A DNA stretch of 64,000 nucleotides, taken from contig CASDWE010000002.1 of NCBI GenBank assembly GCA_949284685.1, forward strand, positions 147,064 to 211,063, in the 5' to 3' direction. The translations under genes and the position numbers were made by a program. Of the stretch, positions 10,586 through 16,265 are shown piece by piece (positions within the stretch are counted from its first letter, which is position 1; every line of letters starts with the position of its first letter). The notes beneath the pieces are model-generated. The model was not told where the DNA came from and did not search any database. It saw only the letters and a program-made list of their open reading frames with translations. Source of the stretch: an uncultured bacterium (lineage in GTDB: Bacteria; Bacillota_I; Bacilli_A; RFN20; CAG-826).

Positions 10586-10662
<77 letters not shown>

Positions 10663-11772: not shown

Positions 11773-14700
11773 TTATAATCCGAATTTTTTAATTCTTTCC
11801 CAACGCAATTCAGCGTATTTTTGAGATTTCTTTAATAATTCTTCAGCATGAGCAGGATTAACTCTTGGTAATTGAGAGAATCTTGTTTCGCTCATGACAA
11901 AGTCATTAAATTTGCTAAAGTCAGGTTCTTTGCAATCTAATGTCAATGGAGATTTGCCTTCTAAGGCTAAACGTGGATCATATCTAAATGTTGTAAAATA
12001 ACCACATTCCACTGCTGCACGTTCAACTTTCATTGAATTAGCAAGACCACCTTTAATTCCATGGTTAGCACATGGTGCATAGCAAATAATCAAAGATGGG
12101 CCATTATATGATTCAGCTTCTTTTAATGCTTTAATCGCGGCGATTGGATTTGCACCTAATGAGATTTGAGCAACATAAACATGTCCGTATGTCATAGCCA
12201 TTAAAGCCAAATTCTTTTTCGCGGTTGTTTTACCAGAAGCGGTAAATTTAGCAATCGAGCCAGTTTGACTTGATTTAGAAGATTGACCACCAGTATTTGA
12301 ATATACTTCAGTGTCAAGGACTAAGATATTAACATCTTCTTCATTAGCGATGACATGATCTAATCCACCATAACCAATATCATATGACCAACCATCACCA
12401 CCAACAATCCAAATGGATTTATCAACTAAATCTCTTTCATAAAGCAAAACTTCTTTTACAGCTTCGTTTTTGCTTTCTTTGACTAATCTTACTAAATCTT
12501 TAACAACGTTTCTACAAACATCTCTATTTTTAATATTAGCAAGATAATTATCAATAACATCTTTTAATTCTTTAGAAACATCCTCCGCTTCTTTGGCGTT
12601 TTCTAAAATAGTGACAATTTTATGTAGTTTATGGTCAGTAGCAATTCTCATACCATAACCAAATTCAGCATTGTCTTCAAATAAGGAGTTGGCCCAAGCA
12701 ATACCATTACCATCTTTATCAGTGCAGAATGGTGTCAATGGAGTTGAACCAGAATAAATTGAAGAACATCCAGTAGCGTTAGCCACTAACATATCCTTGC
12801 CAAATAATTGTGAAACTAAACGATAATATGGAGTTTCACCACAACCAGCACAAGCACCACTAACTTCCATGTATGGCATTAAGAATCCAACACCCTTAGT
12901 AGTTGTAAGTGGAAACTTATCAGATTTGTATGTAACATGTTTGAATAAGTAATCAGCACCTTCTTCTTGAGCAAATTGTGATTTAGCTTCAACAAGTTCA
13001 AGAGCTTTTTTACCAGGAATTTTATTTCCTAAACATTCAATAACACACAATCCACAGCCAACACAATTTTGAGTTGAAACTTGAATTTTGAATTTTAATC
13101 CTTTAACATTTGGACCACCCTTAACATCTGTAACATCATTTTTGACAATGTCAGGAGCGTTTTCTAATTCCTTTTCATCAAGCATGAATGGTCTAATTGT
13201 CGCATGTGGACAAACAAAAGCACATTGATTGCATTGAATACAATCTTCTTTATGCCAAAGAGGTACACGGTCAGCAATACTACGTTTTTCTTTGAAAGTA
13301 ATATTGTTTTCCATTGTTCCATCTTCTAATTCGAATTCTTTGAATTTACTAACTGGTAAATTATCTCCATCCAAATCACCAATTAAGGAAACATAAGAAT
13401 CAAAATATTCATCGCCAGTTAATTTTCTTTCCATGACAGGTTTTAATTCAGCCCATTTTGGATCAACTTTGATTTCTCTTAAACCTTCAGCGCCTGCATC
13501 GATGGCCTTATAATTCATTAAGACAACATCTTCGCCTTTTTTAGCATAAGATTTTTTTGCATAAACTTTCATTAAATCTTGTGCTTGTTCATAAGGCATT
13601 ATGCTTGGATTTAAGTAGAAGAAACTAGCTTGTAAAGTTGTATTAGTATGACGACCCATACCAATTTCACCTGCAATCTTATTAGCGTCAATAACATACA
13701 TTTTTGCATGTTTTTTTGCTAAATAATATTTCATACGATTTGGCATAGATTTAATCAATGTTTCATCATCCATATCGGTATTTAATAAGAATGTTCCGCC
13801 TTCTTTTAAATTTTTCAACATATCAAATTTGAAAATATAAGTATCTAAAGAACAACTAATAAAGTCGGCGTTGCTAACATAATATGTGGAATGAATTGGA
13901 GATTTACCAAATCTTAAGTGACTACGTGTGACACCTCCAGCTTTTCTTGAATCATAAGCAAAATATGCTTGAGCGTATTGATGGGTAGCTTCACTAATAA
14001 TTTTAATTGATGATTTATTCGCAGAAACTGTACCATCACTACCTAAACCATAAAATAAGCAAGAGGTATAATCGGCTTTAACGTGGAAATTATCATCGAC
14101 AGGAATTGATTTATGTGTGACATCATCGTTAATTCCTACTGTAAAATCGTGCCATGGTTTTTCACTTCTTAAGAAATCAAAAACGGCTTTCATATCTTTT
14201 GGTTGAGTGTCTTTACTAGACAAACCATAACGACCGCCAAAAACTTCAACATTATTCAAACCACTTCTATTTAAGCAAGAAACAACATCTAAATATAATG
14301 GTTCACCAGAAGCACCTGCTTCTTTTGTTCTATCTAAAACAGCAATTCTTTTAACTGTTTTTGGCAAAACAGATAAGAAATGTTTCATTGAGAAAGGACG
14401 ATAAAGATGGACTTTAACTAATCCTAATTTAGAATCTTTTAATTCATCAATAACTTCTAAAATTGTTTCAGTAACACTTCCCATCGCAACAATAACATAT
14501 TCAGCATCTTTGCTGCCATAATATGTAAAAGGTGCATAATGTCTGCCAGTTAATTTGCTAGCTTCATCAAAATATTTGCATGCAACATCCACCACTTTTT
14601 CATAATGTTGATTTTGAGCTTCACGACCTTGGAAATAAATGTCATCATTTTCCGCTCCACCACGAGTAACAGGATGAGTGTGAGGATTTAAAGCTCTTGA

Positions 14701-15318
14701 TCTAAATTTTTCTACCTTATCCATTGGGAGAAGTTTTTTCCATTCAGCATCATCAACAAATTCAACATTTTGAATTTCATGTGATGTTCTAAAACCATCA
14801 AAGAAATGGATAACAGGAACTTCACCGTCAATAGCGATTAAATGTGCAACATTAGCTAAATCAGCAATTTCTTGAACAGAATGTGAGCACAACATAACCG
14901 CACCTGTTTGTCTAACAGCGTAAATATCTTGATGATCACCAAAAATTGATAATGCACGAGTCGCTAAAGAACGAGCAGAGACATGAACGACAACAGGCAA
15001 TTCTTCACCAACCCATTTATAAATATTTGGTATCATTAATAACAAACCTTGGCTGGCTGTATAAGTAACAGCTAAACTACCACCTTGCAAAGCACCATGA
15101 ACAGCACCAGAAGCACCACCTTCTGATTGCATTTCGACAACTTTGACAACACTGCCAAAAAAGTTTAAACGACCTTGCGAAGCATAAACATCCACTAATT
15201 CAGCCATCGGTGATGATGGTGTAATTGGATAAATACCAGCAACTTCTGCATAATTATAACTTTCTAATGCAGCAGCGGTATTACCATCGACGGCTAGAAA
15301 ATTCTTTTTAACTTCCAT
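11773..15318 (-). CDS. nifJ: Pyruvate:ferredoxin (flavodoxin) oxidoreductase, single-chain
   Basis: About 1181 aa, the full length of the homodimeric single-chain PFOR. It begins with the pyruvate-binding domain (YPITPSSPMAE), followed by the gamma-type domain. Two 4Fe-4S clusters are bound by CIQCNQCAFVCP (about 690) and CVGCGLCVIECLG (about 750). The C-terminal thiamine-diphosphate domain contains GDGWSYDIGYGG (about 975) and ends with the usual tail. The enzyme oxidises pyruvate with CoA to acetyl-CoA, CO2 and reduced ferredoxin, which points to anaerobic, fermentative life. The ATG at 15318 has GGAGG 5 nt upstream; a TTG 12 nt earlier lies inside that ribosome binding site. Confidence 0.97.
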   Translation of the reverse strand: MEVKKNFLAVDGNTAAALESYNYAEVAGIYPITPSSPMAELVDVYASQGRLNFFGSVVKVVEMQSEGGASGAVHGALQGGSLAVTYTASQGLLLMIPNIYKWVGEELPVVVHVSARSLATRALSIFGDHQDIYAVRQTGAVMLCSHSVQEIADLANVAHLIAIDGEVPVIHFFDGFRTSHEIQNVEFVDDAEWKKLLPMDKVEKFRSRALNPHTHPVTRGGAENDDIYFQGREAQNQHYEKVVDVACKYFDEASKLTGRHYAPFTYYGSKDAEYVIVAMGSVTETILEVIDELKDSKLGLVKVHLYRPFSMKHFLSVLPKTVKRIAVLDRTKEAGASGEPLYLDVVSCLNRSGLNNVEVFGGRYGLSSKDTQPKDMKAVFDFLRSEKPWHDFTVGINDDVTHKSIPVDDNFHVKADYTSCLFYGLGSDGTVSANKSSIKIISEATHQYAQAYFAYDSRKAGGVTRSHLRFGKSPIHSTYYVSNADFISCSLDTYIFKFDMLKNLKEGGTFLLNTDMDDETLIKSMPNRMKYYLAKKHAKMYVIDANKIAGEIGMGRHTNTTLQASFFYLNPSIMPYEQAQDLMKVYAKKSYAKKGEDVVLMNYKAIDAGAEGLREIKVDPKWAELKPVMERKLTGDEYFDSYVSLIGDLDGDNLPVSKFKEFELEDGTMENNITFKEKRSIADRVPLWHKEDCIQCNQCAFVCPHATIRPFMLDEKELENAPDIVKNDVTDVKGGPNVKGLKFKIQVSTQNCVGCGLCVIECLGNKIPGKKALELVEAKSQFAQEEGADYLFKHVTYKSDKFPLTTTKGVGFLMPYMEVSGACAGCGETPYYRLVSQLFGKDMLVANATGCSSIYSGSTPLTPFCTDKDGNGIAWANSLFEDNAEFGYGMRIATDHKLHKIVTILENAKEAEDVSKELKDVIDNYLANIKNRDVCRNVVKDLVRLVKESKNEAVKEVLLYERDLVDKSIWIVGGDGWSYDIGYGGLDHVIANEEDVNILVLDTEVYSNTGGQSSKSSQTGSIAKFTASGKTTAKKNLALMAMTYGHVYVAQISLGANPIAAIKALKEAESYNGPSLIICYAPCANHGIKGGLANSMKVERAAVECGYFTTFRYDPRLALEGKSPLTLDCKEPDFSKFNDFVMSETRFSQLPRVNPAHAEELLKKSQKYAELRWERIKKFGL

Positions 15319-15353
15319 ATTTTCCTCCAAATAATAGTTAAATTGACCAATAA

Positions 15354-15372
15354 TTAGTATATATTATACTAA
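15354..15372. promoter_or_regulatory. Inverted repeat overlapping the nifJ -10 region
   Basis: TTAGTATA and TATACTAA flank a 3-nt centre. On the minus strand this contains TATAAT, so a repressor here would block the nifJ promoter. It does not match the classical Rex operator (TTGTGAAN-type). The adjacent Rex-like protein is a candidate binder by inference. Confidence 0.45.
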
Positions 15373-15392: not shown

Positions 15393-15836
15393 TTATCTTT
15401 TTATTTTATTTTTCTTATTAGCGGTTTTTCTTAATGCTTGTTCTTGATTGATTAATCTTTTTAAAGTTCTTAAATCAGCGTCATCCAAAACAACACTTCT
15501 ATCAATAATTCCAGATATAGTCATTTTTTGATAAATAAAATCTCCAATGGATGAATATTGATCTAATTGCTTTTTTGTTACTAACTTTTTATGAGGTTTA
15601 TTTTCATTTTCTTTGGATAAATCATTAATCAATTTTTCTAAATCATCATATAAATCCATCAAATTGTATTGATAATCCATATTGACCATCGGATCAAAAT
15701 AAGAAAATGTTTCATTAATGATTTCAGGGTAAATTCCTACTTCTTTTGAAAGAAGCTCGCTAGTAACATATTTTTTCTTCATCCTTTTTAAACAAGAAAA
15801 ATATTTTTTTAATATACTTATGTGTGGTGTTTTCAT
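15393..15836 (-). CDS. Rex-like winged-helix protein lacking the NAD-binding domain
   Basis: A 147-aa basic protein. Residues 3-65 (ISILKKYFSCLKRM, then YVTSELLSKEVGI, NETFSYFD and YQYNLMDL) follow the winged-helix pattern of the redox repressor Rex: xLxRYxxyLxxL, then SSxxLAxxxGvxxxxvRxDLSYFG and GYxVxxL. Full-length Rex is about 210 aa, with a Rossmann domain that senses NADH/NAD+. Here the C-terminal half has no GxGxxG motif and instead ends in a Lys-rich tail, so NADH sensing is unlikely. It lies 75 nt upstream of nifJ on the same strand. I infer a DNA-binding regulator of that gene. No Shine-Dalgarno is evident. Confidence 0.55.
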   Translation of the reverse strand: MKTPHISILKKYFSCLKRMKKKYVTSELLSKEVGIYPEIINETFSYFDPMVNMDYQYNLMDLYDDLEKLINDLSKENENKPHKKLVTKKQLDQYSSIGDFIYQKMTISGIIDRSVVLDDADLRTLKRLINQEQALRKTANKKNKIKR

Positions 15837-16148
15837 GTATTTATTTTAAAACAAATAATCTATATTTTGAATACATATTTAATACCAATTGCTATCATAA
15901 ATTTATTTAAAACTCGTATATTTTATTAATGTTATAATTATTCAACTACAATGCATCAATTTTTAGTAGAAAATTTTAATCATATATTATGCTATATCAT
16001 TTTCGTAAATATCTTTTTTTATTAAATTTGCTGATGGAAATGTCTTTAACAAATGTCGGCTCTATAGAATGTTATTTATATTCCACGTCAAATCCCATAG
16101 ATTTTGACTTGTTTTATTCTTTAACACCACTAGATTCTAGCGAGCCTT
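15837..16148. other. AT-rich intergenic stretch without a recognised gene
   Basis: 312 nt between the Rex-like gene and the tRNA-Lys terminator. All frames are broken by stops. It should contain the promoter of the Rex-like gene, but no convincing -35/-10 pair stands out in such AT-rich sequence. A weak dyad around GTCAAATC (about 16089) is the only structure noted. Confidence 0.5.
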
Positions 16149-16189: not shown

Positions 16190-16265
16190 TGGTGAACCGT
16201 ATAGGAATCGAACCTATGACCCACTGATTAAGAGTCAGTTGCTCTGCCAGCTGAGCTAACGGTCC
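16190..16265 (-). tRNA. tRNA-Lys (anticodon CTT)
   Basis: A 76-nt cloverleaf on the minus strand with encoded CCA. The acceptor GGACCGT pairs with ACGGTTC with one G-T pair. The D stem is GCTC/GAGC. The anticodon stem ACTGA/TCAGT encloses loop CTCTTAA, giving CTT at 34-36. The T arm is ATAGG/CCTAT around TTCGATT. It reads AAG codons. Confidence 0.95.

Follow-up and report, generated by a model that had tools for sequence, protein, structure and literature searches.

Among the NADH sensors of Gram-positive anaerobic metabolism, Rex is the best known, and small local regulators encoded beside a single target form a general class. In the S. agalactiae Rex-DNA complex, as described in PMC8376106, the base contacts are made by two helix-3 residues, Arg50 and Arg51, and by Arg62 in the wing. 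Rex dimers are held together by their C-terminal helices and the S. aureus Rex operator follows the consensus TTGTGAAW4TTCACAA, both according to PMC2883068. Literature searches covering open-access text returned no paper on a Rex lacking its Rossmann domain.

The gene analysed here, Q, is located in a 64,000-nucleotide stretch of DNA (the window) from an uncultured bacterium of the order RFN20 in GTDB, which is described in PMC10868615. Q has the N-terminal winged-helix fold, the sequence ancestry and the association with a fermentation gene in common with Rex (PF06971 and PF02629), but differs through the lack of a Rossmann NAD(H) domain, the replacement of the base-reading arginines and a different C-terminal domain. 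It is also reminiscent of small local regulators, being a small winged-helix protein encoded just upstream of a linked gene with an operator-like dyad at that promoter; however, the dyad also occurs where Q was not found, and no such dyad precedes Q itself. Based on profile comparisons, a predicted structure and gene neighbourhoods, we tentatively propose, with slightly less than even confidence, that Q is a local regulator, specific to the order and derived from Rex, whose recognition has been rebuilt and which does not sense NAD(H). The features of the locus are as follows.

15393-15836, minus strand: Q, a Rex-derived protein of 147 aa (the coordinates cover the stop codon as well), supported by an open reading frame, conservation and purifying selection.
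15612-15836, minus strand: residues 1-75 of Q, a Rex-type winged helix with replaced base-reading residues.
15426-15578, minus strand: residues ~87-137 of Q, a conserved C-terminal domain; searches found no relatives.
15396-15425, minus strand: residues ~138-147 of Q, a Lys/Arg-rich tail, the exact sequence of which is not conserved.
11773-15330, minus strand: PFOR (nifJ, pyruvate:ferredoxin oxidoreductase), the downstream partner of Q, with its likely ATG at 15318-15316.
15354-15372, no strand assigned: a perfect 19-bp dyad, TTAGTATA-TAT-TATACTAA (8+3+8), an operator candidate.
15843-15848, minus strand: TAAAAT, a hexamer that ends six bases ahead of the ATG of Q, with TTCAAA 17 bases upstream.
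16190-16265, minus strand: tRNA-Lys, upstream of Q.
10586-10659, plus strand: another tRNA gene flanking the Q-PFOR region.

The open reading frame had already been recognized in a sequence-only reading of the same DNA and is confirmed here, on the minus strand and upstream of PFOR. It is more than a chance frame, since a Q profile matches 116 of the 146 genomes of the taxonomic family, mostly over the full length, and since dN/dS is 0.055 and 0.21 in comparisons with two congeners. We also looked for a frameshift or a lost Rossmann domain downstream, which the earlier reading had considered, and saw no sign of either at Q: the frame is closed, the next gene downstream on the minus strand among the window's open reading frames is the co-directional PFOR, and relatives of Q stop at about the same point, so that a lost domain is not indicated. 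A frameshifted Rex was rejected, as the relatives of Q have a common length and C-terminus.

Similarity to Rex is limited to residues ~1-75. A single Q sequence does not reach the curated cut-offs, obtaining 33.8 bits (E 3e-8) with the NCBIfam Rex models, where the cut-off is 138, and 14 bits with Pfam PF06971, where it is 27. A profile of the Q family (38 sequences) matches the Rex structure 3wg9 in the PDB at E 4.5e-5, and profile-profile comparison of Q with full-length Rex proteins of its taxonomic family (22 sequences) yields E 4.4e-6 and a probability of 87. An AlphaFold2 model of Q was derived from 58 sequences (mean pLDDT 82, pTM 0.52). Rows 1-16 of its VIA fold list are Rex-family winged helices, with 5zz5_B as the best match (Z 8.8, rmsd 2.8, 72 residues), and include one row titled AT-rich DNA-binding protein, a chain which a Rex profile matches; the first unrelated row is an EF-hand domain at Z 7.1. 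Foldseek returned E-values of 0.02 or worse with the same model, the top 32 rows all being Rex-family. Assignment to an unrelated helix-turn-helix family is not supported, as other winged-helix chains have Z-scores of at most 6.0 in VIA and other weak Pfam matches remain below cut-off. In the search for a Rossmann NAD(H) domain, no Rossmann family match was obtained in Q beyond the winged helix, after which only ~70 residues are left, while the full-length Rex of the window's own genome does match PF02629. Together, the profile comparisons and the predicted fold show that Q shares ancestry with the N-terminal half of Rex, in agreement with the N-terminal Rex winged helix and the missing NADH sensor that had been suggested from the letters alone. 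By the defining features of Rex, however, Q is not a Rex.

Columns 41, 42 and, by position, 53 of Q match Arg50, Arg51 and Arg62 of the S. agalactiae protein. A basic residue is present at these columns in 0, 3 and 0 of 58 Q proteins, respectively, the base-reading arginines having mostly been exchanged for Asn/Ala and Glu/Asp, with Asp/Glu at column 42 in 53 of the 58. In a 48-sequence set including more divergent members, the corresponding counts are 4, 1 and 0, and in Rex proteins of the same family both helix-3 positions are basic in 22 of 22. Three of the four intact outgroup Q proteins have kept the first arginine (IREDL/LREEL), with the second basic residue already replaced by Glu; this retention fits a stepwise change from Rex. 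At its N-terminal part, Q carries a mean net charge of +0.3 (58 proteins, first 72 residues), compared with +3.9 for Rex (22 proteins, first 80 residues). Consequently, of the earlier description of Q as a 'DNA-binding-only' Rex, the missing sensor stands, whereas DNA binding is doubtful because the residues that read bases have been replaced.

The sensor had been thought to be exchanged for about 80 polar residues. This region is not filler, and holds a conserved C-terminal domain with the consensus YxSVxDFIYKKMTxGGLxDRNxxLSDxDLxxLKKLIxEE (residues ~87-137), with G109 and E132 of Q present in 48 of 48 sequences. That this domain might be more conserved than the winged helix was not borne out, the two being about equal in mean majority fraction (0.57 vs 0.53 in 38 sequences and 0.64 vs 0.64 in 58), and dN/dS relative to a congener with 80% identity is higher in the C-terminal part (0.42) than in the winged helix (0.13), indicating faster evolution of the former. 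Modelled alone (pLDDT 82, pTM 0.60), the domain is predicted to form a pair of short helices, a hairpin and one long helix. Searches among PDB sequences detected no match, the best hit of the fold search (Z 3.9) is not convincing, and Pfam gives scattered weak matches, the best at E 0.0049 in 1 of 58 sequences and none above chance. These missing matches, to sequences and to folds, do not prove a new fold. If Q senses something other than NADH, the C-terminal domain is the natural candidate.

Judged from genome searches, the Q family is order-specific. Every carrier genome of the family has one profile match, while a single Q sequence at E <= 0.01 reaches 118 family genomes, the two extra ones by chance; weak matches of the single-sequence search in G005 and G058 were rejected as unrelated proteins. 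Across the order, Q is found in 168 of 279 genomes, five of these from three other families. The class-wide search matched 35 of 395 genomes, namely the same order and one weak match, in G169, which was discarded as an unrelated 404-aa protein. Within the family, Q is missing from 20 of 99 good-quality genomes. A scan of named genomes yielded 65 Q loci, nearly all from MAGs, with labels such as Bacilli, Bacillales, Erysipelotrichaceae and Coprobacillus. A contig labelled as a Staphylococcus epidermidis MAG (L133) also carries Q, possibly a mislabelled record.

The position of Q beside PFOR, which had been pointed out for the window, extends through the family. Q and PFOR are present on one contig in 97 genomes, with PFOR downstream on the same strand in 97 of 97. 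The two genes are within 2 kb of each other in 91 of these genomes, where the gap has a median of 169 bp and stays within 300 bp in 63; in the remaining six pairs they are separated by 2.4 to 18.6 kb. A PFOR match is present in 110 of the 116 Q genomes, and in 13 carriers the two genes are on different contigs. Six genomes have Q without a PFOR match, five of which represent one genus while the sixth has a congener with both genes, and PFOR without Q occurs in 23 genomes. Of 38 Q loci read in detail, from which two further fetched loci (L068 and L069) were set aside as chance matches, 34 contain PFOR and 21 contain UvrA, which ranks second in stability among the neighbours. In 5 of the 38, the gene immediately after Q is galU (gap -4 to +4), which was assigned by a PF00483 match and presumably encodes GalU. 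Five genomes outside the family carry Q, and three of them (L227, L241 and L242) have the order Q-galU-PFOR with overlaps or short gaps, as in L242, with a 4-bp overlap of Q and galU and 1 bp between galU and PFOR. L244 (G617) has the same order with broken Q and PFOR frames in a fragmented genome of 66% completeness, representing either assembly error or decay, and in L243 (G613) other genes follow Q. A divergent PTS-HPr gene (PF00381) adjoins Q in L227 and L242, and in L241 an HPr-like gene is located one gene further from Q. Downstream of PFOR, the cluster of a 128-aa protein (L036:4801-5184) recurs in 8 loci; this protein has no Pfam match at E <= 0.001.

The dyad at 15354-15372 is, by its sequence and position, a good operator candidate. 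By eye, it contains a TATAAT hexamer on the PFOR strand; the promoter scan called no full promoter on that strand at the dyad, and called one on the opposite strand (10/12). The arrangement TTAGTATA-N3-TATACTAA is, again by eye, unlike the S. aureus Rex operator, a consensus that may not be that of this genome's Rex. No other copy with 0-2 mismatches exists in its own genome, and across five genomes of the genus, the own one included, the arms are invariant with ATA, GTA or TTT as spacer. A shorter pattern, AGTA-N2-9-TACT, is present in 20 of 108 PFOR promoters vs 5 of 139 control promoters, counts that do not amount to a clean probability because the promoters are related; the split is 13/69 and 3/12 for carriers, 0/8 for carriers with unlinked PFOR and 4/19 for non-carriers. 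Of 105 loci, 69 promoters were kept (those without a PFOR start, short or identical being dropped), and the 39 added for this count include duplicates of the 69. Inverted repeats with arms of at least 6 separate the two groups weakly (35/69 PFOR vs 46/139 control promoters), those with arms of at least 7 occur in 25/69 vs 29/139, and a shuffle test per promoter is mostly not significant (18/69 at p <= 0.05). In genus g24, the dyad is present in 5 of 7 Q carriers and in 0 of 5 non-carriers. In genus g6, a perfect and equally good dyad of the type AATAAGTAT-N3-ATACTTATT is located upstream of PFOR in 4 of 4 genomes (L200-L203), in none of which Q was found, and TAAGTA-N2-7-TACTTA has only 1-3 copies per g6 genome. 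No dyad of this type was seen in the promoters of several Q carriers, for example in g17 and g9, or upstream of Q (0/40). Overall, the comparison of carrier and non-carrier promoters does not support Q as the binder of the dyad.

We infer that Q acts as a local regulator of the PFOR locus. Mechanistically, a Q dimer would still contact DNA, using its altered winged helix together with the basic tail at the C-terminus, its sequence specificity would be different or low, and its activity would be set by the ligand of the C-terminal domain rather than by NADH/NAD+. The most obvious possible target would be the PFOR promoter dyad, to which g6 provides a counter-example. This is the best single mechanism, closely followed by a somewhat unlikely alternative in which the winged helix now binds protein and Q, devoid of DNA binding, associates with PFOR, GalU or another partner, for example as a factor for assembly or activity control. 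Such a role would suit the exchange of the base-reading arginines, mostly for Asn/Ala and Glu/Asp, the low N-terminal charge compared to Rex and the tight outgroup packing with galU and PFOR, but Q is kept in the six genomes in which PFOR was not matched, its basic C-terminus is suited to nucleic acid, and linkage or overlap of genes does not show physical contact. The galU-PFOR locus combines UDP-glucose synthesis with pyruvate oxidation, and Q may, rather improbably, be an order-wide control protein of this locus that senses some metabolite distinct from NAD(H) and possibly does not bind DNA sequence-specifically at all.

Alternatively, Q may be a housekeeping binder of nucleic acid, associated with the nucleoid, RNA or RNA polymerase, and be found beside PFOR mainly through inherited gene order. 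The single match in each of the 116 carriers, the basic tail, the persistence of Q in five genomes of a single genus that lack PFOR, the 19 genomes in which Q and PFOR are separated by more than 2 kb or placed on different contigs and the retention of UvrA, too, in 21 loci are compatible with such a role; however, PFOR, found in 34 of the 38 loci, is linked more strongly than all other neighbours (UvrA being found in 21) and Q is missing from a fifth of the good-quality family genomes (20/99), and we consider this explanation improbable. Antagonism of a full-length Rex, for example via inactive heterodimers, had also been raised for Q. A search for such a Rex in the window's genome was successful, identifying a protein of 216 aa, with the fold it has in common with Q, encoded four bases upstream of adhE (L032:8971-12238). 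Across the family, PF06971 is matched over the cut-off in 75 of 146 genomes, and 60 of the 116 Q carriers have no Rex over this cut-off, including the 96-100% complete G006, G014, G017, G022, G027 and G042, although incomplete genomes or a divergent Rex may add false absences. As these carriers lack a detected Rex, an obligatory anti-Rex role is unlikely. There is no positive association between Q and Rex (Fisher p 0.16) and a Rex-type dimerising C-terminal domain was not found in Q, leaving antagonism in any form highly improbable. Helix 3 of the Rex in L032 has Lys-Lys, most Rex proteins of the family having Arg-Lys. By eye, no canonical Rex site precedes its gene, and a scan of its genome with a Rex-like pattern was swamped by background (790 matches vs 859 with a control pattern).

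In Q, an order of mostly uncultured Bacilli keeps a relative of Rex beside its main pyruvate enzyme, with about half of the carriers having no detected full-length Rex. Q suggests how a redox repressor can be turned into something different, draws attention to a conserved C-terminal domain without found relatives, and represents a test case for the control of pyruvate oxidation in these small genomes.

Regarding expression, a terminator-like hairpin at 16177-16157 follows the upstream tRNA-Lys, so Q probably begins its own transcript. No Shine-Dalgarno sequence precedes Q in the window, and the promoter scan scores the TAAAAT site 9/12, such matches being no more frequent here than in shuffles. 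A start of the TAAAAT type is present in 17 of 39 Q genes (three of them also SD-like) vs 43 of 411 controls with approximate starts, and it is possible that the Q mRNA is leaderless. No terminator was called between Q and PFOR in the window; by eye, a terminator-like hairpin is located between the two genes in L044, L045, L055, L060 and L070, and hence Q and PFOR need not share a transcript in these genera.
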